The position numbers and the translations under genes were made by a program. A stretch of DNA of 64,000 nt from an uncultured Trueperaceae bacterium (GTDB lineage Bacteria; Deinococcota; Deinococci; Deinococcales; Trueperaceae), in assembly GCA_937873495.1 (NCBI GenBank), contig CALMXZ010000010.1, positions 62,001 to 126,000 of the forward strand, given 5' to 3'. Below are positions 13,479-36,000 of the stretch, piece after piece (within the stretch, counting starts at the first letter, position 1; the number at the start of each line of letters is the position of its first letter). Below the pieces are notes generated by a model, which was given only the letters and a program-made list of their open reading frames with translations, was not told where the DNA came from and did no database searches.

Positions 13479-14262
<784 letters not shown>

Positions 14263-14288
<26 letters not shown>

Positions 14289-16161
14289 CAACATCCGCGG
14301 CAGCGCCCTCCGCTACGCCGCCTTCTTCCTCAGCAGCACGTTCTCCGTCGTCCTGTTCTTCGTCTACGCGCAGTTCATCATGCACCCCGACGTGGCGGGC
14401 GGCTACGTCTACGGCGGCGACGCGACGCGGGTCGTGCTCATCGTGTGCGAGGTCCTCGTAGCCGTCTTCGCGTTCTTCTTCGTGCTCTACTCCAGCGGCG
14501 CCTTCCTCCGCGCGCGCAACCAGGAGTTCGGGCTGCTCGCGCTCATGGGCACCACCCGCGGCCAGCTCAGGCGGCTCATCTGGCTCGAGAACTCGGTCTT
14601 GTCGGTAGGAGCCATCGCCCTGGGCATAGGCCTAGGGCTCCTGCTCTCGCGCCTGTTCCTGCTAGGCATCAGCCGGGTCCTCGGGCTCGACGAGCCCATC
14701 CGGTTCCTCTTCGTGCCGAACGCCATCCTCCTGACCGCCGCGAGCTTCTTCGGCCTGTTCCAGCTCGTCACCCTGGTCGGCGGCTTCAGGATCGGCCGGC
14801 TGGAGGTCGTCGAGCTCATGCGCGCCGCCCGCAAGCCGCGCACCGTGCCGCGCGCCTCGGCCCTGCTCGCGCTGCTCGGAGCCGCGCTGGTGGTGGCGGG
14901 CTACGTCGTCGCCCTCGGGGTGGAAGGGGCTGGGGTCGTGCTTGCCTTCGTGCCCGTCGTGGCCGCCGTCGTGCTCGGCACGTTCCTCCTCTTCACACAC
15001 GGCAGCGTCCTGTTGCTGCGCCGGCTGCGCGGCGCCAGGGCCAGCTACCTGAGGGGCACGCGCATGCTGATCGTCTCGCAGCTGATCTTCCGGGTGCGCG
15101 ACAACGCCCGTCTCCTGGCCACCATCGCGACCCTGAGCGCCGTGGTGCTTGCCGCCGCCGGGTCGTTCTACGTCTTCAACCGCGGCTTCGAGCAAAGCCT
15201 GGAGGGCATGTACCAGCAGGAACTGGCGTTCGTCGAGCGGTCGGATGGCAGGTCCAGCCTCGGCCCGTCCGAAGTGGACGGCGTCCTGAGCCGCGACGCG
15301 GTCGCGCCCACGGTGAGGGCTTCCGTGCGTATCCACGAGCTGCGGTCCCGGGGCCCGGTGGCCGGGGAGGAGGGGTGGCTCGTGCTCGTCGGCGCGAGCG
15401 ACTATGCCGCCCTGGCGCGGGCGGCGGGGTTCGCCGCTGAGCCCGCGACCGCGCCCGCGACAGCGCCCACCTCGCTGCGCCTGGTGGCCGGCGCAGCGGT
15501 GCTGGGTGACGGCGGCGTCGGGGCCTCCCGCGTCGCTCCACCCGTGACGATGCCCCCGAGCCTGCAGGGCCCCTGGTACGTGGTCGACGACTCGGCGCTC
15601 GCAGGGCTGCCGACCGAAGGGCGCGAGTACGCGCCGGCCAGGTTCTGGCTGTACGACTGGCCGGAGAGCGCGGCCACGCGCCGGCTGGAGGCCGGGCTGC
15701 AGGAGGTCGTCTTGGCGGCTCCTCGTCAAGACGTCGATGCCCGCTTCATGGGGGTGCGTCAGCTCAGGCAGACGTTGGGGCTCTCGATGTTCGCCGGCGT
15801 GTTCGTCTCCCTCCTCTTCTTCATCGGGGCGGGCAGCCTCATCTACTTCAAGCTGTTCACCGAACTAGGTGAGGACCGCCGCCTGCACGGGCGCTTGCGT
15901 CGCCTGGGGGTCACGCCGGGCGAATCGGCCAGGGTCGTCACCGCCCAGATCGCGGTCATCTACCTGCTGCCCTTCGCGCTCGGCGCGGTCCATGCGGGCT
16001 TCGCTCTCGACGCGCTCGGCAGCCTCCTGCAGCAAGACGTGACGCGCTACAGCCTGGTGGTCATCGGGCTCTTCGCGGCGGTGCAGGGCGCGTTCTTCCT
16101 GCTCACGCGCTGGACGTACTTGAGGGCCCTGCGGCCGGGGGCCGTGGCCGTGCGGGCGTAG
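14263..16161 (+). CDS. BceB-type FtsX-domain ABC permease
   Basis: 632 residues with about ten transmembrane helices: the first at 17-40, an FtsX block at about 55-230, further helices near 280-310, a large external domain of about 200 residues (roughly 312-505, starting FNRGFEQSLEGMYQQELAFV), then three helices to the end. This TM1-7, external domain, TM8-10 order is the BceB signature; the external domain is where peptide antibiotics are sensed in Firmicutes homologues. Overlaps the ATPase gene by 26 bases, so it is translated with it. Ends the BceRSAB-like module. Confidence 0.9.
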
Positions 16162-16249
16162 GCGCCCGCGCGCGGGAGGCCGTGCCGGACCGGGGCCGAT
16201 GCCGAGCACGTGTAGGCTCCTGGCCATAGCTCCGCCCGCCGTCTCCGTA

Positions 16250-16255
16250 TAGCCT
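16250..16255 (+). promoter_or_regulatory. -10 hexamer, probably leaderless, for the tag-like gene
   Basis: TAGCCT lies 6 bases before the ATG at 16262 with no ribosome binding site in between. Confidence 0.45.
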
Positions 16256-16261
16256 TGGCGC

Positions 16262-16804
16262 ATGACGACCGAACCGGGTGACTACGCCGCCAGACCCGCC
16301 TGGGCCGAGCAGGACGACATCATGCGGGCCTACTACGATCACGAGTGGGGCGTGCCGGTCACCGACGAGCGCGAGCTGTTCGAGGCGCTGAGCCTGGAGG
16401 TGTTCCAGACGGGGCTCTCGTGGTCGACGGTCTTGCGCAAGCGCCCGGCGTTCCGCGCGGCGTTCGCCGGCTTCCGGCCCGACGTCGTGGCCGCGTTTCA
16501 GGAAGCCGACGTGGCCCGCCTGCTGGCGGACACCGGGATCGTCAGGAACGAGCAGAAGATCCGCGCCACGATCCGTAACGCGGCCGCCGCGGTGGCACTG
16601 CGCGAGCACGGCGGGCTGGTGGAGCTCGTCTGGTCGTTCCGTTCGGGCCCGGAAGCCGACGGTCATACGCGCACGCCCGAATCCGAGGCGCTCGCCAAAG
16701 CGCTGCGCGGGTACGGTTTCACGTTCGTGGGTCCGACGACGATGTACGCGCTCATGCAGGCGGTCGGAGTTGTCGACGTGAGACGAAGGCCGCAGGCCGT
16801 GTGA
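16262..16804 (+). CDS. tag: DNA-3-methyladenine glycosylase I, variant without zinc ligands
   Basis: 180 residues, closely patterned on E. coli Tag: YYDHEWGVPVTDERELFEALSLE, FQTGLSWSTVLRKRPAFRAAF, GIVRNEQKIRATIRNA and LAKALRGYGFTFVGPTTMYALMQAVG. It removes 3-methyladenine from alkylated DNA. The catalytic-pocket Trp/Glu region is present, but all four residues of the Tag zinc snap are missing: Cys4 aligns with Pro in RPAW, His17 with Tyr in YYDHEWG, and the C-terminal NDHxxxC is replaced by VDVRRRPQAV. The coherent loss suggests a zinc-free variant rather than simple truncation. Confidence 0.9.
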   Translation: MTTEPGDYAARPAWAEQDDIMRAYYDHEWGVPVTDERELFEALSLEVFQTGLSWSTVLRKRPAFRAAFAGFRPDVVAAFQEADVARLLADTGIVRNEQKIRATIRNAAAAVALREHGGLVELVWSFRSGPEADGHTRTPESEALAKALRGYGFTFVGPTTMYALMQAVGVVDVRRRPQAV

Positions 16805-16808
16805 GCTG

Positions 16809-16826
16809 ACCGGAGTCGACTCCGGT
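16809..16826. terminator. 18-bp perfect palindrome after the tag gene
   Basis: ACCGGAGTCGACTCCGGT begins 4 bases past the tag stop codon. It can form a short hairpin and may end the transcript, although no T run follows. A second small stem (16943-16948 with 16956-16961) lies further on. The rest of 16805-17052 contains no gene that I can support. Confidence 0.4.
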
Positions 16827-17052
16827 GGGTTCATCCTGCCGCGCCTCCGGGTCTTCGCCGTCACAGATCCTTGCGTGTCGTCCGCGGTCGGCCGTTCGTG
16901 ACCAGGCGGCGCTGATCCCAGCGGGTTGCGCTTCCGATAGACGACCCATCTTTCGTGGGTCAACATTGCCGACTTGCTAGTCACGGTGTCCCACCGCCCG
17001 ATGGACCGCTCTGTCGCCGGTACTTGCTGTCCAGCGGGGGAGCGGGCGTCAG

Positions 17053-17093
17053 TTGACAACATCCAAAGGCCTGTGTATCCTTCCGTGTATACA
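17053..17093 (+). promoter_or_regulatory. Consensus promoter with GntR/FCD operator
   Basis: TTGACA (17053-17058), 17-base spacer, TATCCT (17076-17081); RNA should start near 17088. The palindrome TGTATACA (17086-17093), typical of FadR/VanR-type GntR operators, lies on that start. Autorepression of the regulator gene that follows is likely. Confidence 0.8.
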
Positions 17094-17121
17094 TAGAAGT
17101 ATTTCTTGAGTGGAGGTGGCT

Positions 17122-17835
17122 GTGAAGCTGGCAACCAAGGTCTATTGGGATCTGAAGCGAGAGATCGCCACATCCGAACTCTTGCCTGGGACTTCGTTGC
17201 ACGAGCTGGACCTATGTGAGAAGTGGGGGGTAAGCAGAACGCCGGTGCGCGAGGCGTTGAAGATGCTCGCAGCGGAAGGTCTCGTCGAGTCGCGCCGAGG
17301 TAATGGCTACAGCGTTGCGCAGATCTCGCGTCAGGACGTCATCGAGGCCTATCAGGTCCGTATCTGGCTAGAACCGCCGCTTGCCGCCGTGGCGGCCAGG
17401 CTCGCCACGGCCGAAGTTATCGCGAAGCTCGGGTCGATAGTCGAACAGACGACGGTGGGTCTACCCGAAGGCGTTGTGGGGAAGGCCGCGTCCGAAACGG
17501 AGTGGGCGCTGCAAGAGGAGCTGCTTCTCGCTCGGGAGAAGCGTCAGCTCTGGACCGGTCTCGACGCCGACTTCCACACCATCATCGGTCAAGCGGCCGG
17601 TAACTCGTTGGCTAATACCTTCGTGCAGCACGCCCGGTTGGTCACCCAGCGAGCGAGTTACCTCATCCCGCCTGGCCGACTACGCCACAGCAACGACGAA
17701 CACCACGCGATCCTGCTGGCCATCTCATCGAGGGATGAGAAGGGAGCAGAGGGTGCGATGCGTGACCACCTGAACTCGACTTACAGAAGGCTCTATACCG
17801 CAGGTTGGATGGAAGTAAGCCCAGACGGGGGCTGA
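17122..17835 (+). CDS. GntR-family regulator, FCD type
   Basis: 237 residues: N-terminal winged helix (TKVYWDLKREIATSELLPGT, SRTPVREALKMLAAEGLVES, RRGNGYSVA) and an all-helical FCD ligand-binding domain with the metal/ligand pattern D-x3-H (LDADFHTIIG), RASYL and a late His in EHHAILLAI. FCD regulators sense organic acids made by the operon they control. GTG 17122 was chosen because GGAGG (17112-17116) is 5 bases upstream; an in-frame GTG at 17110 has no site. Its likely targets are itself and the transporter/hydrolase genes downstream. Confidence 0.9.
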   Translation: MKLATKVYWDLKREIATSELLPGTSLHELDLCEKWGVSRTPVREALKMLAAEGLVESRRGNGYSVAQISRQDVIEAYQVRIWLEPPLAAVAARLATAEVIAKLGSIVEQTTVGLPEGVVGKAASETEWALQEELLLAREKRQLWTGLDADFHTIIGQAAGNSLANTFVQHARLVTQRASYLIPPGRLRHSNDEHHAILLAISSRDEKGAEGAMRDHLNSTYRRLYTAGWMEVSPDGG

Positions 17836-17921
17836 GATTGACGAAAGGAGTTAATTCAGCTATCCGCTATGCGAGCGTAATCAAAGTTTCTAGACATCAA
17901 TGCTATAAGGAATGTGAAGCC

Positions 17922-19484
17922 ATGAAACTAGCATTACTTGCTGCAATTGCATTGCTGTTCTTACTTCCATCCTCCGCTCTGGCCCAAGAGCCTGTGTACG
18001 GGGGAACTTTAGTGATAGGACGGTCTTCTGACGCCATCACTCTCGATCCGAACGACGGCCCGGACGGAAGGTCGTCGGCTGTCGCCAAGCTCATAGCGGA
18101 GCCGCTTGTTCGGTTCCGCCCTGGTACCTCGGAAGTCGAGCCATGGCTGGCTACCTCTTGGTCCGTGTCGGATGACGGTCTCGAGTGGACGTTCCAGTTG
18201 AGAGACGGCGTCAAGTTTCACGACGGAACTCCGTTCAACGCCGAGGCCGTGGTGTTCACCTTCCTACGCATGCTCGACAAGGATCACCCCTACCACTACA
18301 TGGGCGCTTGGGTGCATGCCACCGGGCTGTTCTCGAACGTCAAGGACGTCGTGGCCGTAGATGATCTGACGGTCAAGTTCGTCCTCGCTAAGCCCTACTC
18401 GCCGTTCCTAACGGCGTTGACGAACGGACGCGCGGCCATCGTGAGCCCAACGGCCGTTGTCAATGACCCGGACAACTTCTTCAAGAACCCCATCGGGACC
18501 GGCCCTTACGTGATCAAGGAGTGGCGGACTGACGAACGGATCGTCCTGGAGCGGTTCGAGGGTTACTGGTCGGACCGGCCCTACTTGGACTCGATCATCT
18601 TCCAGGTGATCCCTGAGAGCGTCGCGCGGATACTTGCGCTTCAGAGGGGCGACATTCAAGCGGTGATCGAGGTGGACGCGATCTCGCGTCAGATGATCGA
18701 GAGCTCCCCGGGCCTGGTTCTGCAAGAGACCCCCGGTATCCTGCACGGCTACCTCACGGCCAACGTCGCGAAGGCTCCGTGGGACGATGTAAGGGTCAGG
18801 CAGGCGCTGTTCCATGCGTTGGATCGGCAGGCCTTGGCTGACGCCTTCTATCCAGGAGGTGCGGTTGCCAGAGGGGTCATGTCCCAGTCGTTCCTTGGCT
18901 TCGACGAAGACATCCCTTGGTACGACTACGATCCGGAAGAGGCGCGGAGACTACTGGCCGAGGCGGGTTACCCCAACGGCTTTGCCACCACGCTCTATAC
19001 GGTCGACGGGACCAGGCCCCACACTCCACAGCCGCGGGCCGCTTCTGAGGCCATTCAAAGCTACCTGGCTGCCGTTGGGATCCGAGTGGAAATCGTTGTA
19101 TCTGATACTGCGACATACCTGGACGCTGCACGTGCGGGTGAGCACGGCCTGCTCCTCGCTGGTTTCAGTCCGATCATGGCGGATCCTTGGACGGTCATGT
19201 ACACGCAGTTCGATTCACGCCGGGCCGTCCTTGGTTCTGCCAACAACTTCTCCTTCTACCGCAACCCCGAAGTCGACGCCTTGAACGATCTAGCCGACGC
19301 TGCGGCCGAGCCGGAACAGAGGGCGGCTTACTACCGCCAGATCCAGGAGATCGTGTACCGAGACGCCGTTCGAGTCGACCTGGCGGACATGAACGACGTG
19401 CTTGGCCTACGCGCCGAGGTCCACGACTTCTACCCGGACAGACAAGCTGGTTATGAACTGCAGTACACATGGCTAGGTAAGTAA
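17922..19484 (+). CDS. Peptide/nickel-type ABC substrate-binding protein (cluster A)
   Basis: 520 residues, SBP_bac_5 family. Signal peptide 1-21 ends ALAQ with no lipobox Cys, so it is a free periplasmic protein. Family blocks: EPLVRFRPGTSEVEPWLATSW, WTFQLRDGVKFHDGTPFNAEAV, NPIGTGPYVIKEW, DVRVRQALFHALDRQALAD and EARRLLAEAGYPNG. Homologues bind di- and oligopeptides, opines or other amides. It sits between the GntR gene and two deacylase genes, with its permeases at 21.7-23.5 kb. The first codons are strikingly AT-rich. A ribosome binding site AAGG is 11 bases before the ATG; a weak promoter (TTGACG 17838, TATCCG 17861) precedes it. Confidence 0.93.
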   Translation: MKLALLAAIALLFLLPSSALAQEPVYGGTLVIGRSSDAITLDPNDGPDGRSSAVAKLIAEPLVRFRPGTSEVEPWLATSWSVSDDGLEWTFQLRDGVKFHDGTPFNAEAVVFTFLRMLDKDHPYHYMGAWVHATGLFSNVKDVVAVDDLTVKFVLAKPYSPFLTALTNGRAAIVSPTAVVNDPDNFFKNPIGTGPYVIKEWRTDERIVLERFEGYWSDRPYLDSIIFQVIPESVARILALQRGDIQAVIEVDAISRQMIESSPGLVLQETPGILHGYLTANVAKAPWDDVRVRQALFHALDRQALADAFYPGGAVARGVMSQSFLGFDEDIPWYDYDPEEARRLLAEAGYPNGFATTLYTVDGTRPHTPQPRAASEAIQSYLAAVGIRVEIVVSDTATYLDAARAGEHGLLLAGFSPIMADPWTVMYTQFDSRRAVLGSANNFSFYRNPEVDALNDLADAAAEPEQRAAYYRQIQEIVYRDAVRVDLADMNDVLGLRAEVHDFYPDRQAGYELQYTWLGK

Positions 19485-19491
19485 GCTCTTC

Positions 19492-19517
19492 GGGGGCGCC
19501 CCCGAGGGGGCGCCCCC
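19492..19517 (+). terminator. GC-rich hairpin between binding protein and downstream operon genes
   Basis: Two identical self-complementary arms (19492-19503 and 19506-19517) pair into an 11-bp stem of only G and C with a 4-base loop. No T run. The position, 7 bases after the binding-protein stop, suggests a partial terminator or an RNA-stabilising 3' hairpin that raises binding protein over permease expression. Confidence 0.65.
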
Positions 19518-19583
19518 GCACCCGACAAGAAGCGACCGATGATCACTTGACGTTCCTTCGAAAGATCAAGTGCTGGGAGGGTA

Positions 19584-20600
19584 ATGGACATTTTACAGGT
19601 CGGTACGGCGAGTGCTCGTAGAGGTGAGCGAGCCTTCGGCGCCATCAAAGTAGCTGAACTCAATGACGGGTCTCCTGTGGAGATCCCGGTGGGAGTGCTG
19701 CATGGGGCCAAGCCCGGTCCGGTCGTCTGGATGCAGAACGGCGTCCACGGCATGGAATACACCGGCATGGGCGGTATTCAGCGAGTGCTGCACGGCTGCG
19801 ACCCACGGGAGATGGCGGGCTCCGTGGTCGGCATACCCATGGTGAACATCATGGCGTATCGCTATGGAACTCGCGGTGCTCCTCAAGACGGCCTCGACAT
19901 GAATCGTACGTATCCGGGCAAGCCGCTGGACACGGCGATGCACGTGTTCGCGCATACAGAGTTGGTACTCGACCAGATATTCTCCGAGATCAAGAGAGTA
20001 GCTGACTGCGTACTCGACTGTCATGCCGGCGGCTGGCACGCCTACATGTCGCCTTACGCTCAGTACGCAACGGGCATGGGTGGCGACGACACTTACGAAC
20101 AGAGATGCCACGAGTTGGCCGTTGCTACTGGGATGACGTTGATATGGCGCACCGAGTCGGCTTTCATGGAGGAGAAGGCTCCGGGCTCCTTGAAGGTGTG
20201 GGCGGCCAAACTCGGGATCCCGGGTCTGACGCTCGAAGTCGGAGGGGAAGGGAAGATGGTGGACCCCGAGGTGGCCCGCTTCCACCTTGCTCTGACGAAC
20301 GTGCTTCGGCATCTGGAAGTCATTCCTGGCAAGCCGGAGATCCCGGGGGAGCAGTACGAGGTCATCAAGGGTCACTGGCTCCGCCCTAGCACCGGCGGTT
20401 GCTTGGTCGTGAAGGCCAGGCCGCTCGAGCGGGTCAAGAAAGGCCAGGTGATCCACATAATCACGGACCTCCTTGGAAGAGAACGCGAGAGATTGCTTGC
20501 ACCCGTCGATGGCGTCGTCGTCGGCATAAGGACTCACGGGAAAGTGAACAGCGGAGACTACTGCGGCAACATCGGCCTCATCGCGAAGCGGGGTGCCTGA
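19584..20600 (+). CDS. AstE/aspartoacylase-type zinc deacylase, copy 1
   Basis: 338 residues, M14-like succinylglutamate desuccinylase/aspartoacylase family. Zinc ligands H55 and E58 in NGVHGMEY and H147 in LDCHAGG; arginine/asparagine substrate pair in GLDMNRTYPG; catalytic-Glu region LTLEVGG. The C-terminal beta domain (about 255-338) has a lipoyl/barrel-like fold (GQVIHIITDLLGRERERLLAPVDGVVVGI). Such enzymes cleave N-acyl groups from amino acids or related amides. GGGAGGG precedes the ATG. Its stop touches the next gene, a diverged duplicate. The middle residue of HGxE is Met rather than the usual Asp. Confidence 0.88.
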   Translation: MDILQVGTASARRGERAFGAIKVAELNDGSPVEIPVGVLHGAKPGPVVWMQNGVHGMEYTGMGGIQRVLHGCDPREMAGSVVGIPMVNIMAYRYGTRGAPQDGLDMNRTYPGKPLDTAMHVFAHTELVLDQIFSEIKRVADCVLDCHAGGWHAYMSPYAQYATGMGGDDTYEQRCHELAVATGMTLIWRTESAFMEEKAPGSLKVWAAKLGIPGLTLEVGGEGKMVDPEVARFHLALTNVLRHLEVIPGKPEIPGEQYEVIKGHWLRPSTGGCLVVKARPLERVKKGQVIHIITDLLGRERERLLAPVDGVVVGIRTHGKVNSGDYCGNIGLIAKRGA

Positions 20601-21602
20601 ATGAGCAAGGGCGCGATCACTGTCGGTACGGCTACGTCTTCCCGCGGAAGAACCGTTTTCGGCGAGCTGAAGGTAGCGGAACTCAACGACTCCAGCCCTA
20701 TCAGTATCCCCGTTGCGATCGTCCAAGGAGAAACGGACGGGCCGGTTCTATGGGTTCAGAACGGCGTTCACGGCGATGAGTATGTGGGTCTGGGGGCTAT
20801 CCAGTGGCTTCTGCGAGATCTGGACCCCGCGCGACTGCGCGGGACCGTGATCGCGTTGCCCGTCGTCAACATAATGGCTTACCGAGAACGCTCGCGAATG
20901 GCCTCCCAAGACGGGCTGGACATGAACCGGATGTACCCCGGCAAGCCGCTAGAGACGGCCATGCACTTGCAGGCGCATACTGAGCTGATCCTGTACGCTC
21001 TGACGAATTACATGAAGGAATACGCGGACGTAATCATCGATTGCCACGACGGATCGGCCATCGCCACCATGTCACCGTATGCGCAATACTTCGATGCGGC
21101 GAGCGAGGCGGGCAAGAAGAGCAGGGAGCTCGCCATAGCTACCGGCATGTCGATCGTGTGGCGGTCGTCGCCTGGCTTCATCGATGAGAAGGCGCCCGGA
21201 TCGCTCAAGACCTTCCTCAATCAGATCGGAATCCCGGGTTTGACCCTTGAGGTCGGGGGTCAGGGGCGGCTCGATCGCAAGGACGTCTCGCGGATGAACC
21301 TGGCGTTGCGTAACCTGATGGTGCACCTCGGCATGGTCGATGGGAAGCTCGAGCGCCCCGAGGAGCAGGTCTTCATCAACGCGGCCAAATGGCTTAGGCC
21401 GTCGAAGGGCGGCAGTTTCTGGCCCAACGTCGAGCCTCTACAGCGTGTATCACGCGGCGACCTGTTCGCCACGGTTACAGACCTGTTTGGCCGGGAGAAA
21501 GAGAGACTGCTAGCTCCTACCGACGGAATCGTCGTTGGGATCAGGACCAGTGGGACGGCGCATACGGGCGAATACTGTGGCAACGTGGCGGAGTTCGACT
21601 GA
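20601..21602 (+). CDS. AstE/aspartoacylase-type zinc deacylase, copy 2
   Basis: 333 residues, tandem paralogue of the preceding gene, with the same order of motifs: KVAELNDSSPISIPV, NGVHGDEY (zinc ligands H57, E60), GLDMNRMYPGKPLETAMH, DCHDGS (H149), LTLEVGGQG, and the C-terminal beta domain ending GTAHTGEYCGNV. ATG directly follows the previous stop. Two adjacent, clearly different copies suggest two acyl substrates, or a heteromeric enzyme, rather than gene dosage. Part of the same operon as permeases and HyuAB. Confidence 0.88.
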   Translation: MSKGAITVGTATSSRGRTVFGELKVAELNDSSPISIPVAIVQGETDGPVLWVQNGVHGDEYVGLGAIQWLLRDLDPARLRGTVIALPVVNIMAYRERSRMASQDGLDMNRMYPGKPLETAMHLQAHTELILYALTNYMKEYADVIIDCHDGSAIATMSPYAQYFDAASEAGKKSRELAIATGMSIVWRSSPGFIDEKAPGSLKTFLNQIGIPGLTLEVGGQGRLDRKDVSRMNLALRNLMVHLGMVDGKLERPEEQVFINAAKWLRPSKGGSFWPNVEPLQRVSRGDLFATVTDLFGREKERLLAPTDGIVVGIRTSGTAHTGEYCGNVAEFD

Positions 21603-21691
21603 TTCTGTGCAGGCGATGCGATTAGCGCTGCTTGAATCGCAACGAGTCCTATGCGCACAAGTATGACGGAGCGCTCCTGGGGACGGGATTA

Positions 21692-22693
21692 ATGGCTGGT
21701 TTGCTACTGAACCGCATTGGACAAGTGATTCTGGTGATGTTCGGAGCCTCGATTCTGGTGTTCCTGATGATCAGGGTTCTGCCAGGGGATCCCGTCCTGA
21801 TGATGCTGGGGGAATACGCGACGGCTGAGAAGATCGAACAGGTAAGAGAGGACATGGGTCTGAATCAGCCCCTTCACGTCCAGTACCTGACCTGGACTGC
21901 GAAGCTGCTACGAGGAGACTTCGGTCGGTCGTTTCGCAACGGCGAACTGATCTCGCGGGAACTGTCGACGCGCTTGCCGGCGACCGCCGAGTTGGGCCTG
22001 ATAGCACTGGCGGTCGGATCTCTCTTCGGGATCATGCTTGGCGTTATCGCAGCCATGAAGAAAGGATCGTTCTGGGATCACGGTGTGATGCTAGTGGCGG
22101 TAGCTGGCATCGCGGTTCCGGTGTTCTGGATAGGCCTGCTGTTGCTGATGGTCTTCACGGTAGTTTGGCCGGTACTGCCTGTGGGCGGTCGGGTCGGTGT
22201 CCTGACGTCCTTGCCTGGGCCCACGGGGTTCGTCCTCCTAGACGGGATCATCGCCTGGAAGCCGCAGCTGGTTTGGGAGGGGGTTCGGCATCTGATCCTG
22301 CCGGTTGTCTCCCTGGCGTCCTATCCGGCCGCGGCTGTCGCGAGAGTAACGAGGTCGAGCATGTTGGAGGTCCTGAACCTCGATTACATCCGCACTGCTC
22401 GAGCCAAAGGTGTACGGATGCTGAACGTGGTCATGCGTCACGCTCTTCGGAACGCGCTGATACCGATCGTGACCATCATCGGCCTCAGCATCGGCCCGGT
22501 GATCGGGGGAGCGGTTCTCACTGAGACGGTTTTCGGATGGCCGGGGCTAGGTCGGTACACCGTTGCGGCCATAACTTCTCGAGACTTCCCCGCTGTTCAA
22601 GCCATAGTTTTCCTGTCCGCGCTCGTGTTCGCTGCGACCAACGTGCTGGTCGACCTGGCCTACATGTTCATCAATCCTCAGGTGCGCAACTGA
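21692..22693 (+). CDS. DppB-type ABC permease (cluster A)
   Basis: 333 residues, six-helix inner-membrane permease of the dipeptide/oligopeptide family. N-terminal helix with FLMIRVLPGDPV, external loop (MGLNQPLHVQYLTW, GDFGRSF), and the EAA cytoplasmic loop (LDYIRTARAKGVRMLNVVMRHALRNALIPIV) that docks an ATPase. ATG 21692 is preferred to a TTG at 21632, since it starts just before helix 1 and has GGGACGGG upstream. Partner permease follows but is frameshifted; no ATPase gene is in the cluster. Confidence 0.9.
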   Translation: MAGLLLNRIGQVILVMFGASILVFLMIRVLPGDPVLMMLGEYATAEKIEQVREDMGLNQPLHVQYLTWTAKLLRGDFGRSFRNGELISRELSTRLPATAELGLIALAVGSLFGIMLGVIAAMKKGSFWDHGVMLVAVAGIAVPVFWIGLLLLMVFTVVWPVLPVGGRVGVLTSLPGPTGFVLLDGIIAWKPQLVWEGVRHLILPVVSLASYPAAAVARVTRSSMLEVLNLDYIRTARAKGVRMLNVVMRHALRNALIPIVTIIGLSIGPVIGGAVLTETVFGWPGLGRYTVAAITSRDFPAVQAIVFLSALVFAATNVLVDLAYMFINPQVRN

Positions 22694-22706
22694 AAGGGCA
22701 GTGCTA

Positions 22707-23545
22707 ATGGGCTGGAGGCGAGTCACTAGAGACAGGGCAATACTGGTCAGCGGCCTAGGGTTGGCCGTGTTGGCCGCCATCGTCATCCTGGCTCCGGTTC
22801 TTTCCCCTCAAGACCCGTTGTCGGTTGATCTAGGGCGGCGCGTAGTGCCGGGGTTCTGGTCACCTAGGGCCATCCCTGGGTTCTGGCTCGGCACCGACAA
22901 CCTGGGTAGGGACGTGCTCTCGCGTGTGATCATGGGGGGCGCGTTACGCTTGTTGCGGGCCTCTTGCCTACCATTCTGGCGACTGTGCTTGGCATCGTCA
23001 TCGGCAGTCTGGTGATGTTTTCAAAGCCGTTGGACGCGGTTGGCATGAGGCTGATGGATGTTCTGTTTTCCTTCCCTCACTTGCTGCTGGCCATGTTCGT
23101 CGTAGCGTTGTTGGGCGCCGGGCTGACGAACGCCGTCATCGCGATAGCGCTCGTGAATCTACCTCGTATGGCGCGTGCCGTCAGGGCGCAAGTGATCGTC
23201 ATCATGGAGCAGGAGTTCGTGGAAGCATCCAGGGCGTTGGGCAATCGTGCCGCCCGGCTGTTCATACGCCACGTGCTTCCTGGGGTCATACCCATCCTCG
23301 TAGTGCACTTCAGCTTGACTGCGGGTAGGTCCATACTCACGATCGCTGGCTTGAGTTTCCTCGGTTTGGGGGCGAGACCTCCCACGCCCGAATGGGGCTC
23401 GATGTTGTCTGAAGCGCGCGAGCTGATGTTCGTGGGCGCCTGGTGGGCCGTAACCCTACCGGGTTTGGCCATATTCGCCACGGTACTGCTCTTCAACATA
23501 TTCGGGGATGCGTTGCGCGACGTCCTCGATCCTCGGCGCGGGTAG
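22707..23545 (+). pseudogene. DppC-type ABC permease interrupted by a frameshift (cluster A)
   Basis: Reading from ATG 22707 gives a normal DppC start (helix 1, LGTDNLGRDVLSRVIMGG) and then nonsense to a stop at 23015. The remainder, GRVTLVAGLLPTILATVLG through ALRDVLDPRRG, continues in the -1 frame to 23545. The switch is at a run of six G (22934-22939): seven G would restore one 279-residue protein with six helices and the EAA loop (QEFVEASRALGNRAARLFIRHVLPG). This could be a sequencing error in the run, a real inactivation, or slippage on the G run that makes both products. Confidence 0.85.
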
Positions 23546-23634
23546 CTGCTGGTGGCCCGCCGCGCATGGGACGACGCCGTGCGGAACGAAGTAAGCCATA
23601 GAGCTGCCATCAGGTGGCGTGAAGGGAACAGGAA

Positions 23635-24915
23635 ATGAGCGATAAGGCGAACGGTCATATCAGTCGTGAGATCACGCTCGATGCTGATGGAAGGTGGTGG
23701 CACAGTAACCTCAACAAGCATCCGGCCGTGACCGTTGGAGAGAGCTTCGCGAAAACGATGATAATCAGGGATTGCACGCTCCGCGAAGGCGAGGAGATGG
23801 GGGGCGCGAGCCTCGGCATCGAACATAAAGTGCGTCTGGCGCGCTTAGCGGACGAGATCGGTATCCGCGAGATCGAAGTAGGGTACTGCGGTGCGATACC
23901 CGAGCATCAGGACATGGCGCGCGTCCTCAAAGACGCCGGGGTCCGGGCAAGCTTGACCTCGATCAACAGGTCTTACACGCGCGATGGTGAGTGGCAGAGG
24001 GAGGTCGACCTAGCCGTCGCAGCGGGCGTCGACTGCGTGCACTTCGTCGTCTTCTCGAACGAGGACCTGCTGGCCTCCGTGCCTTGGCTCGCTAAGGAGG
24101 ATGTGCCGGCCAGGGTGGTCGAGTGCGTCACCTACGCTCGAGCCTCGGGGGTCAAGGTCGGCTACGCGTTGGCCGGATCCGGGCGGACCGAGCTCGAGGA
24201 CATCCTGACCTGCGCGCGCGCGGCGGCGAGCGCGGGTGCCGAGGTCATCGGGGTAACCGACTCCATGGGATGCTCCACGCCGGAAGCCGTGGCCTTCTTG
24301 GTGAGGGAGGTGCGAGAGGCGGTCGGCCCCGAGCACATCGTGAGCTTTCATGGGCATAACACTTTCGGGCTGGCTACGGCGAACGCGCTGGCGGCCGCAC
24401 GTGCGGGTGCCGGGATGGTGGACACCGTGCCGCTCGGCATAGGAGAAGGCGCGGGGATCGCAGCGCTCGAGGAAGTGGTGTTCTCCCTGGAGGTCCTTTA
24501 CGGCGTGCGAACGGGACTCAACGTCAGTAAGATCGCCGACATGGCCCGGTTGGCTCGGGAGGCGTTCGGCGTAGAACTGATACCGACCAAACCGTTCATC
24601 GGCAACAGCATATACAGGCATACGATCGACAGCCACATAGCCAGCATCCTTAGGGGTAAGTGGCATTCGTGGGAGTGCATCCATCCGAGTGTCGTGGGGC
24701 AATCCCGCTCTTTAGAGTTTGCCAACTCGAAGATCCGGTCGGGGCGCTCGGGGGCGATCGGAGCGAAGATCTCTCAACTCGGCTACTCGCCAAGCGACGA
24801 AGAGGTGGAGGAACTCATCGGTCGTATCCGGCAGATGACCCTCGGACCCGGTTGGCTCTCGGAACAGGAAGTGGAGAGCGTCATCCACTCTGCATTTCAA
24901 GCCGACTCCAATTAG
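23635..24915 (+). CDS. DRE-TIM metallolyase (homocitrate/isopropylmalate synthase- or HMG-CoA lyase-like)
   Basis: 426 residues. A TIM barrel begins at about residue 42 with the family signature IIRDCTLREGEE (metal Asp and catalytic Arg), followed by EVGYCGAIPEHQ, VTDSMGCSTPEAV, and the metal-binding HGHNTFGLATANAL (His-x-His) and NAL..ARAGA near 240-260. It has no regulatory domain, so it is an open-chain aldol condensing or cleaving enzyme using an acyl-CoA and a 2-oxo acid, or the reverse. Substrate unknown. The first 40 residues are an unusual extension. Lies between the permeases and HyuB in one operon and may handle the carbon skeleton released by the hydrolases. Confidence 0.85.
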   Translation: MSDKANGHISREITLDADGRWWHSNLNKHPAVTVGESFAKTMIIRDCTLREGEEMGGASLGIEHKVRLARLADEIGIREIEVGYCGAIPEHQDMARVLKDAGVRASLTSINRSYTRDGEWQREVDLAVAAGVDCVHFVVFSNEDLLASVPWLAKEDVPARVVECVTYARASGVKVGYALAGSGRTELEDILTCARAAASAGAEVIGVTDSMGCSTPEAVAFLVREVREAVGPEHIVSFHGHNTFGLATANALAAARAGAGMVDTVPLGIGEGAGIAALEEVVFSLEVLYGVRTGLNVSKIADMARLAREAFGVELIPTKPFIGNSIYRHTIDSHIASILRGKWHSWECIHPSVVGQSRSLEFANSKIRSGRSGAIGAKISQLGYSPSDEEVEELIGRIRQMTLGPGWLSEQEVESVIHSAFQADSN

Positions 24916-24965
24916 TCGGACCCGTCTGCCACTCACCGGTTGACGGAGGGTTCGGAGGGAGAGTC

Positions 24966-26795
24966 ATGTCGTTGGAGTACGGTCCTAGCGGCAGGTTGGA
25001 ATCGCTACGCAATCGTTACCACGCCATCGTAGATGAGATGAGCGCCACGTTGCTTCGCACGGGTCATACGGTTTTCATAAAGGAGACTGGTGACTTCTCT
25101 TGTGCGCTCGTAACGCCTCAGGGAGAAGTGTTCTGCGCCCCGACCAGGCTCGGTATGATCAGGATCGTCGGTATGAACATGGCGACGGCGATCGCCGCGT
25201 CTGACCCTCCAGAAGAAGGAGACATCTGGATCGCCAACGACCCGTGGACCACGGGAGGGATGTCCACGCACCTTCCGGATGTCTTCCTATGGCAGCCAGT
25301 GTTCGTAGACGGTGAACTGCTGTGTTATGTGTGGAACTTCGTTCACGTATCCGATATCGGTGGCCGCGTCCCCGGCAGTATCTCACCCTCTTCCGTCGAG
25401 ATCTTCGAGGAGGGGCTCATCCTTCCCCCGACGCGGCTCTACAAGCGTCATGAGGTGAACGAAGAGGTACTCAGGATCGTGCTGGCCAACACCCGGATCC
25501 CCAAGCAGACGTGGGGCGACATAAAGGCGGCGGTGGCCGCGCTCAACATCGGGCGCCGACGGTTGATAGAGATGGTCGATCGCTATGGCATGGAAGCCCT
25601 CAGAAGCGCCCAAGAACAGCTGCTTGGCTGGGCGGAAGAGCGCGCGGCACTCCTGATCGACAAGATCCCAGATGGGGAGTACCGGTTCACGGACTACATG
25701 GAGGGCGCCGGGCTCCAAGGCCCCTTCGGCATCTCGGTGGCGCTCCGGGTAAGCGGGAGCAAGTTGCAGCTGGATTTCTCTGGGACCTCCCCGCAAGTCG
25801 CCTGCGCCTACAACATCCCTACAGGAGGCCGCGGACCGCATTACTACCTCACCACCGCGATAGTCACGCTTCTTAGGACCTGGGACAAGAACATCCCTTA
25901 TAACGGCGGATTGGTGCGGAACGTGTCGGTATACCTGCCAGAAGGCAGCGTGGTCAATCCTCGACCGGGCGCGGCGATCGGGGTTAGGGCGGCCACGATG
26001 CATCGGATCTACGATGTCGTGATGGGTTGCTTGGCGCAGGCCCTTCCCGGCGTCATTCCGGCTGCGGGGGCCGGTCAAGGCCCGGTGGTAGTCGTATCGG
26101 TCCCTGCGGCGGAAGGGAAAGACAGGAAGGTATCCGTCGTCCAGCCGCTGAGGGGCGGAAGCGGTGGGCGACCTCACTGCGATGGCATAGATGGCATAGA
26201 CATCACGGTGGGTAGCGGCCGCAACATCCCTACCGAGGTGCTCGAGCAGGAGATGCCGCTTCTGATTCATAAGTACGGGCTCCGGCCGAACTCCGCCGGC
26301 TACGGTGAGTTCAGGGGCGGTCTAGGGCTGGAGCTGGAGTTCGAAGTCCTCTGTGAGGAAGCCAAGGTGGCTTGCCGGGGACTCGAGCGTTACAGGCTCA
26401 GGCCTTGGGGGCTTGCCGGCGGACGCCCAGGCGGCTTGGGTCGGACGATTCGCAACCGGGGCGGCGATCAGGAAATCGACGAAGGAAGGTTCGATCTGCT
26501 GTCTCTCAAGCGGGGCGACAGGCTCTACTTCGCGACCCCCGGCGGCGGCGGTTACGGAGACCCCAGCCGCCGGGCCGAGTCGAAGATCCGGCGGGATCTG
26601 GTCGAGGAGCGGTTCGGTGACGGAGTGGGAACGTCGGAACGTGGGGCGGGTGCGCGCTCTGAACCCGGACGCGGCGCCGGCACGACTCCCATGGAAGACG
26701 GGGGAAGCGAGTCGCAGCCCGTCAGGGTGATGGCTTCGTTCGATCTAGGCTCGGAACGGATGGCCTTCGATGCCGACGGTGGCATGCATGACTGA
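24966..26795 (+). CDS. hyuB: Hydantoinase B / oxoprolinase family subunit
   Basis: 609 residues, HyuB family: early ETGDFSCALVTPQGEVFC, NDPWTTGGMSTHLPDVFLW, the PGSISPSSVEIFEEGLILPP block, NTRIPKQTWGDIKAAVAALNIG and the glycine-rich PGGGGYGDP. With HyuA it forms an ATP-dependent cyclic-amide hydrolase (N-methylhydantoin, 5-oxoproline) or an acetone/acetophenone carboxylase-like complex; sequence alone cannot separate these. The last 70 residues are a Gly/Arg/Asp-rich extension beyond the usual end. GGAGG lies 7 bases before the ATG. Its end overlaps the hyuA start by 8 bases. Confidence 0.9.
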   Translation: MSLEYGPSGRLESLRNRYHAIVDEMSATLLRTGHTVFIKETGDFSCALVTPQGEVFCAPTRLGMIRIVGMNMATAIAASDPPEEGDIWIANDPWTTGGMSTHLPDVFLWQPVFVDGELLCYVWNFVHVSDIGGRVPGSISPSSVEIFEEGLILPPTRLYKRHEVNEEVLRIVLANTRIPKQTWGDIKAAVAALNIGRRRLIEMVDRYGMEALRSAQEQLLGWAEERAALLIDKIPDGEYRFTDYMEGAGLQGPFGISVALRVSGSKLQLDFSGTSPQVACAYNIPTGGRGPHYYLTTAIVTLLRTWDKNIPYNGGLVRNVSVYLPEGSVVNPRPGAAIGVRAATMHRIYDVVMGCLAQALPGVIPAAGAGQGPVVVVSVPAAEGKDRKVSVVQPLRGGSGGRPHCDGIDGIDITVGSGRNIPTEVLEQEMPLLIHKYGLRPNSAGYGEFRGGLGLELEFEVLCEEAKVACRGLERYRLRPWGLAGGRPGGLGRTIRNRGGDQEIDEGRFDLLSLKRGDRLYFATPGGGGYGDPSRRAESKIRRDLVEERFGDGVGTSERGAGARSEPGRGAGTTPMEDGGSESQPVRVMASFDLGSERMAFDADGGMHD

Positions 26796-28827
26796 CCGCC
26801 CGACGTTGCGAGTGGGGGTCGATGTCGGTGGGACCTTCACGGACGCTCTCCTCGTGGACGAGGTTTCCGGGCGCTTCAGGCTGTTGAAGGTTCCCAGTGT
26901 GCCGGACGATCCGTCGAGAGCGGTGATGGACGCGGTCGCTGGTCTATTGGAAGAAGAGAGACGGGCACCCGCCGAGGTTCGGCTGTTGGTCCATGGGACT
27001 ACCTTGGGGATCAACACCCTCGTGCAACGCAAGGGAACACCGACAGGCCTGATCGTCACGCAGGGGTTCCGAGACATGCTGGAGCTGGGCCGGGGCCGGT
27101 TGCCTTCGATCCACAACTTCAATGCCGTGAACGTACCTCCGCTAGTCGGAAGAGACATGGTGGCCGAGGTCCGGGAGAGGCTCCTGGCCTCCGGTGAGGT
27201 GCGTTCGGCACTGGACCGCGCTGAGTTGCTGGACAAGGCGCGCATGCTCGTGGATCGGGGCGCTGAGGCCATCGCTCTGTGCTTCCTTCATTCGTACAGG
27301 AACCCGGTCCACGAGCTGGCCGCGGTCGAACTCATCAAGGACACCCTGCCGGGTGTCTTCGTGAGCGCTTCCCATCAGGTATGGCCTCAAGCGCGTGAGT
27401 ACGAACGGGCGATGGCTACCGTCATCAACGCTTACATCGGTGAGCCTATCTCCCGGTATTACGCCAAGGTCAAAGAACGACTGCTGAGCATCGGCATCGT
27501 CGCGCCGGTGGTCGTTACGCGGTCGGCTGGGGGAGTGATGTCGGTCGAAAGCGCGCGGCAGAGTCCGATCGAGACGATACTCTCCGGGCCCGCCTCGGGA
27601 GTATCGGGGGCCGCCAGCATCGGTGGGAAGATCGACGAGCCGCGGATCGTGTGCCTGGACATGGGTGGTACCACCGCCGATGTGTCCGTTGTGGATGGTG
27701 CTCCCGCCTACAGTTTCGAGACGACGGCAGCCGGGTTCACACTTTCGGTTCCGGCGATCGACATCGTGGCTATCGGTGCCGGTGGCGGATCGGTGGCGTG
27801 GGTCGATCCGAGCGGAGTCTTGAAGGTGGGCCCCCAAAGCGCTGGGGCCGAACCCGGGCCGGCGGCTTACGGGCGAGGGGGTGTAGAGCCGACGGTCACG
27901 GACGCCTATCTGCTGTTGGGCTACCTCGATTCCACCAATTTCCTCGGTGGGAAGATCGAGCTGGACATGGAGTCGGCCAGAGCAGCCATGGAGTCGCTCG
28001 CCTCTCGAACCGGAGAGACGGCGACCGAGGTAGCGGCTCAGATCATCGAGGTCGCGAACTCGAACATGTACGCAGAACTCATGCCTCTCCTCAGCAGGCA
28101 GGGGGTGGATCTGGAGTCGTTCGGCCTGTTCGTGTATGGCGGAGCGGGTCCGACCCAAGGGTTCATGGTGGCGGAAGAGCTGGGCATCCGACGAGTGATC
28201 GTGCCTAAGATCCCGGGAGGGATGTGCGCGCTCGGTGGATTGCTGAGCGACGTCAGATCGGAGTTCGTCAAGTCCTACTTCAGAGCGGGCGAACAGGTCG
28301 TCCCCAGCGAGCTGGAGGACGAGTTCTCGAAGCTGGAACAGGGAGCGCTGTCCTGGCTCGATTCCCAGGGCCTGGTGTTCGAGAGCCGGAGCTACGTCAG
28401 GTCTGCCGACATGCGCTACAAGGGCCAGTCGTTCGACATCAACGTGGCGGTTGGCTCCTGCGCATGGGATGAACTGAGGGAAGCGTTCCATGAGCGCCAT
28501 GAGTCGGTGTACGGACACTCCGATAGACGAGGCGAGCTCGAGATCGTTACCTTGCGCGTCCACGTGATAGGGGCTTTACCTCGGGTAGCTGACGGACCTC
28601 CCGCGGCGACCGCTGAGTTCGAATCGGTGCGCCACCGCCGTAGGAGCGCCTGGTTCAAAGGCGGTTGGCGCTCTGCCGACGTCTACGAGAGGGGAGCCAT
28701 CGCGGTGGACACGGTGCTGCGGGGCCCTGCCCTCGTCGAGCAGTACGACACCACGGTCGTCATCCCTCCTGGGTGGGAAGTCCGCTGCGACGTGAGCGGT
28801 AACCTTCTGGCGGAGTACAAGGTTTGA
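26788..28827 (+). CDS. hyuA: Hydantoinase A / oxoprolinase family subunit
   Basis: 679 residues, ASKHA-fold ATPase subunit. Phosphate-1 motif VGVDVGGTFTDALLVD near the start, HGTTLGINTLVQRKG, SGPASGVSGAA, the second nucleotide motif CLDMGGTTADVSVVDG and GGAGPTQGF. ATP phosphorylates the substrate carbonyl before ring opening by the HyuAB complex. ATG 26788 overlaps the hyuB end (ATGACTGA); an ATG 6 codons earlier is less likely. Last gene of cluster A, whose other enzymes are deacylases, consistent with stepwise amide cleavage of an imported compound. Confidence 0.9.
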   Translation: MTDRPTLRVGVDVGGTFTDALLVDEVSGRFRLLKVPSVPDDPSRAVMDAVAGLLEEERRAPAEVRLLVHGTTLGINTLVQRKGTPTGLIVTQGFRDMLELGRGRLPSIHNFNAVNVPPLVGRDMVAEVRERLLASGEVRSALDRAELLDKARMLVDRGAEAIALCFLHSYRNPVHELAAVELIKDTLPGVFVSASHQVWPQAREYERAMATVINAYIGEPISRYYAKVKERLLSIGIVAPVVVTRSAGGVMSVESARQSPIETILSGPASGVSGAASIGGKIDEPRIVCLDMGGTTADVSVVDGAPAYSFETTAAGFTLSVPAIDIVAIGAGGGSVAWVDPSGVLKVGPQSAGAEPGPAAYGRGGVEPTVTDAYLLLGYLDSTNFLGGKIELDMESARAAMESLASRTGETATEVAAQIIEVANSNMYAELMPLLSRQGVDLESFGLFVYGGAGPTQGFMVAEELGIRRVIVPKIPGGMCALGGLLSDVRSEFVKSYFRAGEQVVPSELEDEFSKLEQGALSWLDSQGLVFESRSYVRSADMRYKGQSFDINVAVGSCAWDELREAFHERHESVYGHSDRRGELEIVTLRVHVIGALPRVADGPPAATAEFESVRHRRRSAWFKGGWRSADVYERGAIAVDTVLRGPALVEQYDTTVVIPPGWEVRCDVSGNLLAEYKV

Positions 28828-28974
28828 CGATAGCCGGAGCCAGGCCGACGATGGTTACGTCGCTCATCGGAGCGCGGTAGTCGCGGCGGTGGGGGTCCGT
28901 CGTGACGAAGCGAAGACGGTCAGCCGGCCGGCTGCGGCGCGGTCGGGCGATCTCGGCCCCGCGTCGCCTACGTG

Positions 28975-30009
28975 CTACCGCGCGCCCATCAAGAGCGGCT
29001 CGCTACCTGTAGTCGCGTTGCCGAACACGGTTCTGAGCTTCGCCACCGAGTCCGGTGCGATGTCGAAGGCTAGTTCGGACGAGGTCGCTCGGATGCCCTG
29101 GGCCTTCAGGTCCAGGTCGGCCAACGCCAGTCCGGCACCGAACGTGTAGAGGATCACGTCCGCTTCACGGGCAGCGGCAAGGAACTTGTCGAGCGCGTCG
29201 ACGGTGAACGCTTCTACGTCGCTCGGGTCGATGCTGCTATAGAGAGACAGCAGGTTGAGCGAACTGTACAGGTAGTGCTCCTCGGCCAGCACGATCGCCG
29301 CCTTGCTCGGGTCCAACGCGGCCAACGCGTGGACCGTACTTGGCAGCGGTTCGGAGACGATGGTCAGGACCTCGTGGGCGGGGGCGAAGCGCGGTAGCTG
29401 CTGTTCGAGCCATGGGACGTTCCTGGCTACCGTCACCACGTAGAACGCTTCGGTCAAGGCGGACTTGGCCGCCTCGCTCTCCGCGGCGATCTCGTCGAAT
29501 GTCAGGGGCGTTGCCCTGACCGCCCGCCCCATGTGGTGCTCGAGGCGCCCCGCGTACTTCTTGGCGATGTGCGCCACGCGGTCCACGTACACCACGTGGC
29601 AGGGCACGTCGTCGCGCTGCGTTATCGAAGTGAGGCGTTGGATCATCTCCTGATCGGAGAAGCCAAGCGCCCGCGCCCGGTTACGCGCCTGTTCAACGGC
29701 GTCGTTGAGCAGCTCGTGGCGTACCGCGTTCACGCGGTCGAGATCGCTGAAACGACGGACGAACGAGCCCCTGCCGACCGTGGAGTCGATGAGCCCGTCG
29801 CTCTGTAGCGCCCGGTAGGCTTGGGCGACCGTGTGGTGGTTGACCCCCAGTTGCCGGGCGAGGTTCCTGACCGCCGGTAGCCGGGACGCGGGAGGCAGCT
29901 TCTCGGTGGTTATCAGGTAGCTCAGCTGGTACTTGAGCTGAAGGTAGATCGGAAGGTCGCCCGAAGGGTCGATCCTCACCTGGTGTAAAGCGTCAGCATC
30001 GTCGCTCAT
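28975..30009 (-). CDS. GntR-family regulator with long unassigned C-terminal domain
   Basis: 344 residues. Residues about 15-85 are a YtrA-like winged helix (PIYLQLKYQLSYLITTEKLP, NHHTVAQAYRALQSDGLI, GRGSFV). The remaining 260 residues are not a UTRA, FCD or aminotransferase domain; they alternate beta and alpha like a periplasmic-binding fold (DVPCHVVYVDRVAHIAK, VLTIVSEPLPSTV, ADVILYTFGAG), which suggests a small-molecule sensor. Divergent from cluster B, its probable target. A minus-strand promoter (TTGGTG 30109-30114, TATCCT 30086-30091) and a CTTTC/GAAAG inverted repeat (30048-30064) lie upstream. The 147 bases between it and hyuA hold nothing recognisable. Confidence 0.85.
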   Translation of the reverse strand: MSDDADALHQVRIDPSGDLPIYLQLKYQLSYLITTEKLPPASRLPAVRNLARQLGVNHHTVAQAYRALQSDGLIDSTVGRGSFVRRFSDLDRVNAVRHELLNDAVEQARNRARALGFSDQEMIQRLTSITQRDDVPCHVVYVDRVAHIAKKYAGRLEHHMGRAVRATPLTFDEIAAESEAAKSALTEAFYVVTVARNVPWLEQQLPRFAPAHEVLTIVSEPLPSTVHALAALDPSKAAIVLAEEHYLYSSLNLLSLYSSIDPSDVEAFTVDALDKFLAAAREADVILYTFGAGLALADLDLKAQGIRATSSELAFDIAPDSVAKLRTVFGNATTGSEPLLMGAR

Positions 30010-30047
30010 CAGATATCGTCACCCGCCTAGTGGCCGCGAAGCAGACT

Positions 30048-30064
30048 CTTTCAAGATACGAAAG
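30048..30064. promoter_or_regulatory. Inverted repeat, candidate GntR operator
   Basis: CTTTC (30048-30052) and GAAAG (30060-30064) flank a 7-base spacer. The site is just downstream of the probable start of the GntR gene transcript (-10 TATCCT at 30086-30091 on the minus strand). Confidence 0.4.
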
Positions 30065-30190
30065 AAGTACGAGCGTGTTTGCCCTAGGATAAAGTTTCGA
30101 GTCACGAACACCAAATAGCTGGTCGGCGCTCGCCGGTCGATGACTCGGGTGCCTCGGCGCGGGTGGGGCTCCTCGCGCCGAGCGGGCGTG

Positions 30191-30219
30191 TTGACAGTGA
30201 TATCACAATGTCCTAGTCT
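30191..30219 (+). promoter_or_regulatory. Consensus promoter of cluster B with palindrome in the spacer
   Basis: TTGACA (30191-30196), 17-base spacer, TAGTCT (30214-30219). The first 10 bases of the spacer are a perfect palindrome GTGATATCAC (30197-30206), placed where a bound repressor would exclude RNA polymerase. RNA from here has a leader of about 90 bases before the GTG at 30315. Confidence 0.75.
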
Positions 30220-30314
30220 ACTACCACAATCTATAGAGAGGCCGAAACGCAGAGGGTCGCGAAAGACCGCAAGGACAACCGTAACGCCGCTCGCAAAGCA
30301 CTCTGGAGGAGCAT

Positions 30315-31916: not shown

Positions 31917-31961
31917 CGAGAGCCTCCTGAGCCCTAGGCGCCAGGCACGGACCATGACGAG

Positions 31962-31991
31962 CTTGTGGGGTCGCGACCGCGACCCCACAAG
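31962..31991 (+). terminator. Strong hairpin between binding protein and permease genes
   Basis: A 14-bp perfect stem (31962-31975 with 31978-31991) with a 2-base loop, without T run, 45 bases after the binding-protein stop and 30 before the DppB start. Same position in the operon as the hairpin at 19492-19517 in cluster A, with unrelated sequence. Confidence 0.65.
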
Positions 31992-32020
31992 TCTCGCCTA
32001 GGTCGCGGCAGCCAAGCTCT

Positions 32021-35965: not shown

Positions 35966-36000
35966 CCGGGGCCCCTCGCGACGTTGTTAAGGAGCCAACC

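Follow-up and report, generated by a model that had tools for sequence, protein, structure and literature searches.

Clusters for ectoine catabolism encode a GntR regulator, an importer, the ring hydrolase EutD and then EutE (PMC5924519; also PMC7192451). In the caprolactamase CapAB, a set of Asp-His-Asp-His ligands is essential by mutation, and the ATP motifs and the GxxPGP motif of this hydrolase family have been defined (PMC8453981). Cluster A, located at positions 17110-28827 of the window (the whole analysed stretch of 64,000 nucleotides, G000:C10:62001-126000 within a genome of 3.44 Mb), was compared with these systems. It is read here, with somewhat better than even confidence, as a horizontally acquired, substrate-inducible operon for a cyclic amide or an N-acylated amino-acid-like compound, working by import, ring opening and deacylation. 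Judged from its sequence, the main novelty of the cluster is its DRE-TIM enzyme with a rebuilt pocket, while the type of module itself recurs.

Layout and acquisition of cluster A

Cluster A was called from the open reading frame (ORF) listing together with Pfam and NCBIfam scans. These confirmed the genes named in the sequence-only reading: nine genes, all on the + strand and in the order first described (GntR/FCD regulator, solute-binding protein (SBP), deacylases D1 and D2, permeases DppB and DppC, DRE-TIM enzyme, HyuB and HyuA). The range 17053-28827 was also correct, 17053 being the -35 hexamer TTGACA and 28827 the end of hyuA. The likeliest starts were revised for SBP (ATG 17922), DppB (21692) and HyuB (24966). 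Intergenic gaps are 0-99 bp and hyuB overlaps hyuA by 26 bp, so a single transcript is plausible.

A contig of the same-genus genome G004 (C3, L094) aligns to window positions 13793-16782 (84-85% identity) and 29021-45785 (87.5%). Only 122 bp separate the two aligned arms in G004, where the permease gene from upstream of the insertion is the neighbour of the regulator gene from downstream of it, and the extra segment of about 12.2 kb carried by the window consists solely of cluster A and short flanking stretches. The GC content at third codon positions (GC3) is 0.73-0.77 for all the cluster A genes against 0.84-0.94 for the confidently called neighbours. Because the site is empty in the sister species and the composition is foreign, the simplest reading is that cluster A was gained in this lineage by horizontal acquisition; a loss in the sister alone would leave the composition unexplained. 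The gene set is not a chance grouping: its limits are those of a discrete insertion that the sister species lacks. If the cluster was gained whole, regulator included, there is good reason to think that its genes work together. With its natural boundary, the insertion allows the genes to be considered jointly, under a single hypothesis.

The junctions lack direct or inverted terminal repeats of at least 10 nt and no recombinase was found with the inserted segment, so transposon-style ends are not supported. Close relatives of the DRE-TIM protein or of the D1/D2 pair were found neither in the 111-genome sample of the phylum nor in the 390-genome sample of relatives. The best matches of the SBP (41-45%, in genomes of other phyla) had plain Dpp operons as neighbourhoods, and no donor was identified from them.

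Cluster B, a second Dpp region at 28975-46400 of the window, is a separate matter, and its part 29021-45785 is shared with G004. Named from reading of the translations, its genes encode a GntR regulator, a dipeptidase, a hydroxyacid dehydrogenase, another AstE, an amidase, a creatininase-like protein and an amidohydrolase.

Enzymes, importer and control signals

The closest solved relatives of the DRE-TIM protein, by both sequence and fold, are methylthioalkylmalate, homocitrate and isopropylmalate synthases. Its AlphaFold2 model, in which the core is mostly well predicted and the C-terminal part 314-371 poorly so (mean predicted local distance difference test, pLDDT, 68), matched the synthases with Z about 34 (33-34) and 3-hydroxy-3-methylglutaryl-CoA (HMG-CoA) lyases with 29. 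The protein is only about 22-32% identical to solved members and falls under every curated cut-off, with at best 227 bits against 517 for homocitrate/isopropylmalate synthase and 40.7 bits against 246 for HMG-CoA lyase. The lyase direction implied when the sequence-only reading called this protein a metallolyase is therefore unsupported so far, the nearest sequences and folds being those of Claisen-condensation synthases.

Mapped on the T. thermophilus homocitrate synthase (HCS), the protein retains Asp46, His239 and His241 of the metal site and also the catalytic Arg50 and His334. Replacements were found in the oxo-acid pocket, its positions being given the roles that they have in HCS structures: Gln16->Glu54, His72->Ile110, Arg133->Gly176, Ser135->Ala178, Thr166->Ser210 and Tyr303->Trp346. 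Further changes are Asp->His136, Glu-Asp->Ala-Gly (180-181) and Asp->Thr243, the last placing Thr after H-x-H-N, as in lyases. Since the oxo-acid pocket of HCS is not kept, the enzyme probably has a new substrate.

A separate group of loci that shares the H-x-H-N-T motif of the cluster A protein (L017, L022, L029, L037 and L042) has citrate-lyase-like, MR-MLE, HbpS-like or tripartite-tricarboxylate transporter genes as neighbours, named from the translations without a domain scan. The L017-type family consists of long DRE-TIM proteins with a conserved N-terminal PWD-EGKW motif and H-x-HNT-GLA-AN, present in metagenome-assembled genomes of Acidobacteria, Spirochaetales and Deltaproteobacteria.

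The HyuA translation carries the ATP phosphate motifs DVGGTFTD and DMGGT as well as GAEPGP (GxxPGP), and Asp43, His102, Asp105 and His127 of HyuB align with Asp41, His99, Asp102 and His124 of CapB. Against the caprolactamase models HyuAB scored 509.8 (CapA) and 231.6 bits, the cut-off being 1000 for each. HyuA was nearer to CapA than to the other named models, and the acetophenone carboxylase subunits reached at most 283 bits (ApcC 283, ApcD 134). Because the ATP motifs and metal ligands are kept and CapA outscores the carboxylase subunits, HyuAB is likely an amide-opening hydrolase; its substrate is not assignable from sequence, since the scores lie well under the equivalog cut-offs. HyuB has 16 matches in G007 and 14 in G021, two genomes of the same family, several of them in tandem arrays, against one in G000.

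The two deacylases are 53% identical, their genes abut directly (20600/20601), and in the tree they formed one clade of their own with support 100/100. Both have the AstE/AspA (M14-fold) catalytic domain above the Pfam cut-off and keep all the metal and catalytic positions (in D2 His57, Glu60, Asn109-Arg110, His149 and Glu217). The best NCBIfam match of both was DoeB, with 86.4 bits for D1 and 85.2 for D2 against a cut-off of 402.7, and the equivalog test thus failed. Scanning the genome contigs for a tandem-deacylase pattern gave no matches, with poorly chosen patterns.

A tandem AstE pair is conserved in three genera of the same family (L070, L071 and L072; Table 1), near Dpp, aminotransferase, S9 and M24 genes. 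The first member keeps the zinc and catalytic positions and is 84-85% identical between the genomes; in the second, 68-76% identical, His57, Arg110, His149 and Glu217 are replaced by Ser, Ala, Arg and Trp. This second member is predicted to be a conserved pseudoenzyme partner. On a Cytobacillus oceanisediminis plasmid (L008 13965-29938), about 16 kb hold five AstE-family genes, four of them 49-67% identical among themselves, and two Dpp-type importers.

A 1-nt frameshift interrupts dppC within six consecutive G (22934-22939), with OppC_N in the frame of 22707 and BPD_transp_1 in the frame of 22940. In its context, G GGG GGC, the G-run matches a slippery heptamer, and the frame that follows is -1. 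The frameshift may stem from faulty assembly or from mutation, a programmed -1 shift on this heptamer being less likely; homopolymer indels are a common assembly error. Also, no ABC ATPase gene was present among the cluster A products, and a complete Dpp-type importer is thus not encoded in the cluster, the ATPases being only elsewhere in the genome. Genome-wide, G000 has 65 family-5 (Dpp/Opp-type) SBPs and five oligo_HPY ATPases (two pairs and one partial match), located away from cluster A. Given these numbers, many Dpp/Opp importers of G000, that of cluster A included, likely share a few ATPases. Such sharing would account for the absence of ATPases from cluster A and from other Dpp triplets of G000, and would ease the acquisition of cassettes of SBP, DppBC and enzymes.

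Promoter-like sites across the region were near the shuffled expectation in number, and TTGACA-17-TATCCT is weak evidence alone. Just 3' of its -10 hexamer lies TGTATACA, present as a single copy in the window against a mean of 0.04 expected. It is a candidate operator that would fit autoregulation by the GntR protein. The hairpin region 19480-19584, after the SBP gene, has a minimum free energy of -46.5 kcal/mol (z -2.96) and may have a role in transcript ending.

Table 1. Positions of the features in the window and, where a locus is named, of related genes elsewhere.
Feature	Positions	Strand	Basis
Inserted segment, ~12.2 kb, holding all of cluster A	16783-29020	no strand	G004 alignment, empty site
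Promoter-like site TTGACA-17-TATCCT	17053-17081	+	Motif scan
Palindrome TGTATACA, candidate GntR operator	17086-17093	+	Sole copy in window
GntR/FCD-family transcriptional regulator, GTG start	17110-17835	+	Pfam GntR 5.3e-18, FCD 4.8e-21
Dpp/Opp-type SBP	17922-19484	+	SBP_bac_5 4.5e-105; DppA 278 bits, cut-off 1005
Strong GC-rich hairpin, 3' of SBP gene	19491-19518	+	Folding energy
D1, AstE/AspA (DoeB-like) deacylase	19584-20600	+	AstE_AspA_cat 4.7e-21; DoeB model
D2, AstE/AspA (DoeB-like) deacylase	20601-21602	+	Pfam, DoeB model, identity to D1
DppB-type permease	21692-22693	+	BPD_transp_1 1.8e-40
DppC-type permease, frameshifted at G-run	22707-23545	+	OppC_N, BPD_transp_1 in separate frames
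DRE-TIM (HMGL-like) enzyme, homocitrate-synthase-type post-barrel domain	23635-24915	+	HMGL-like 6.4e-50, HCS_D2 5e-6
HyuB, metal-site subunit, ATP-dependent lactamase-type hydrolase	24966-26795	+	Hydantoinase_B 3.4e-149
HyuA, ATP-binding subunit	26770-28827	+	Hydantoinase_A, Hydant_A_N; CapA model
Tandem AstE pair	L070 9184-10230, 10235-11200	+	Conserved pair
Tandem AstE pair	L071 8385-9407, 9352-10398	-	Conserved pair
Tandem AstE pair	L072 8904-9956, 9956-10939	+	Conserved pair
L017-type DRE-TIM genes	L017 2145-3380, L022 855-2102, L029 2647-3900, L037 4698-5942, L042 2521-3876

Recurrence of the gene set and weighing of the readings

Searches of plasmids and of 390 genomes did not recover the full cluster A set, nor did a motif scan of 84,980 species genomes. 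That scan, with HxHNTxGLAxAN, gave 31 loci, of which the closest reached about 32% and none had the full set; it demands the exact motif and could miss divergent members. Viral contigs queried with the DRE-TIM protein and fragments of it gave no matches. The best relatives in plasmids were 34% identical for D2, at most 31% for the DRE-TIM protein and 45% for HyuA, the last without an adjoining AstE or DRE-TIM gene.

The search for the same genes in other genomes, which had been proposed from the sequence alone, did recover the core of importer, AstE and HyuAB in two genomes of the same family, without a DRE-TIM gene. Locus L067 of G021 has the order SBP-DppB-DppC-AstE-HyuA-HyuB, with genes overlapping or near-abutting, and L065 of G007 the order AstE-SBP-DppB-DppC-Gfo/Idh-amidohydrolase-AstE-HyuA-HyuB. 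At a further locus of G021 (L068), AstE adjoins HyuB, and a Dpp importer and another AstE are also present. AstE genes next to a Dpp importer were seen in other phyla too, and those on Cytobacillus, Pukyongiella, Neorhizobium and Deinococcus replicons are accompanied by genes for M24, amidohydrolase or creatininase proteins. The literature search gave no description of AstE, a hydantoinase and a dipeptide transporter in one cluster, and no matching pathway came from the diketopiperazine and ergothioneine leads. The earlier statement that no pathway with this set is described stands for the full set only, in the collections searched; without the DRE-TIM gene, the arrangement is similar to that of ectoine catabolism and is seen again in relatives.

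In the proposed operon, the GntR protein would repress transcription via TGTATACA until a pathway intermediate releases the repression. The SBP and DppBC would import the substrate, powered by host ATPases, after which HyuA would use ATP (and bicarbonate) to activate the amide and the metal site of HyuB would open the ring. D1 and D2 would strip acyl or carbamoyl groups from the ring-opened product, like DoeB/EutE in ectoine catabolism, and the DRE-TIM enzyme would then act on the freed acid by forming or cleaving a C-C bond, perhaps with an acyl-CoA. This scheme of import, ring opening and deacylation, already outlined in the sequence-only reading, is in part strengthened by the catalytic motifs, intact in those enzymes open to checking, by the gain in one block and by the recurring Dpp-AstE-HyuAB operons. 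Several points weigh against it: dppC is frameshifted in the assembly, so that the importer may not work and in any case needs ATPases from elsewhere, D1 and D2 score far under the DoeB cut-off, the HyuAB and AstE families are broad, and the relatives of the module are without the DRE-TIM enzyme.

The dppC frameshift also bears on the alternative that cluster A was acquired but no longer functions and is decaying as a passenger. The low GC3 and the absence from the sister species, marking foreign origin, fit this too, but no other gene is interrupted, the active sites are intact, and the sole defect is an indel of the homopolymer kind common in assemblies, at a run which would allow a programmed shift; decay therefore appears improbable. 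Slightly less improbable, though still unlikely, is peptide scavenging, in which a modified or cyclic dipeptide or a pyroglutamyl peptide would be imported, HyuAB would open a diketopiperazine or 5-oxoproline, the M14-fold AstE proteins would be peptidases or deacylases and the DRE-TIM enzyme a separate assimilation step. The dipeptide type of the importer, the abundance of Dpp/Opp SBPs in the genome and the M24 peptidases, S9 prolyl-oligopeptidases and MR-MLE enzymes of sister AstE and HyuAB modules favour it. However, by Pfam none of the nine cluster A products is an M20, M24 or S9 peptidase, Dpp-type importers carry also non-peptides, and among named models HyuA is nearest to caprolactamase. 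Least credible is that HyuAB would be a carboxylase of acetone or acetophenone type: the superfamily is the same and ApcC and ApcD do score, but lower than the caprolactamase models, the third subunit of such carboxylases is absent and sister operons put HyuAB beside deacylases. This identity was set aside on the scores and the missing subunits.

Compatible with the preferred operon reading is a further alternative, rated at a little short of even, that the DRE-TIM enzyme would act not as a lyase but as an acyl-CoA-dependent synthase, trapping the released 2-oxo acid by Claisen condensation. The best sequence and fold matches, the post-barrel domain and the kept metal-site and catalytic Arg/His positions all suit a synthase, but the substrate positions of homocitrate and isopropylmalate synthases are altered, the Thr after H-x-H-N is as in lyases, and the block has no downstream isomerase or dehydrogenase. 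More tentatively, cluster A may encode a new pathway whose ATP-dependent ring opening and two deacylations supply a DRE-TIM enzyme with a new specificity, and may spread between bacteria as a 12-kb self-contained unit borrowing host ABC ATPases; the DRE-TIM reaction would then probably be a retro-Claisen or aldol-type cleavage. Cluster A draws attention to a broad class of modules, hardly characterised so far, that combine a Dpp importer, AstE and a ring-opening hydrolase, and likewise to DRE-TIM proteins within catabolic clusters. A defined substrate for it would help the annotation of many related loci.

Comparison with described systems and related loci

With the ATP-dependent lactamases (CapAB, 5-oxoprolinase and N-methylhydantoinase), HyuAB has in common the two-subunit plan of an ASKHA and a metal subunit and the ligand set, but it stays well under the equivalog cut-offs. 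The DRE-TIM enzyme has the fold, metal-site residues, catalytic Arg and His and post-barrel domain of the homocitrate and isopropylmalate synthases, from which it differs in the replaced oxo-acid pocket and the scores below cut-off. Among catabolic DRE-TIM loci, two in genomes of the same family resemble cluster A in having an HMGL-like protein beside Dpp importers and amide hydrolases (an isochorismatase-fold hydrolase in L010, amidohydrolases in L011); at these and at the five L017-type loci the protein is 26-36% identical and HyuAB and AstE do not adjoin. The operons L065 and L067 likewise combine an importer with AstE and HyuAB, and L065 also has two AstE genes, but unlike cluster A they have no DRE-TIM gene, their proteins are only 28-43% identical and their accessory enzymes are different.

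Ectoine catabolism (enuR, ehu/ueh, eutD/doeA, eutE/doeB) and cluster A have in common a GntR-type regulator, a binding-protein importer, and ring opening followed by an AstE-family N-deacetylase. By Pfam, none of the nine cluster A products is an M24-family DoeA/EutD ectoine hydrolase, and the aminotransferase and semialdehyde dehydrogenase are also missing. Because the hydrolase is absent and the deacylases miss the DoeB cut-off, cluster A is placed outside the ectoine pathway. In contrast to that pathway, it has the ATP-dependent HyuAB as would-be ring opener, two deacylases and the additional DRE-TIM enzyme. Cluster A is best read as a module resembling that for ectoine catabolism, in which HyuAB would replace the ectoine hydrolase and to which an extra C-C enzyme has been added.

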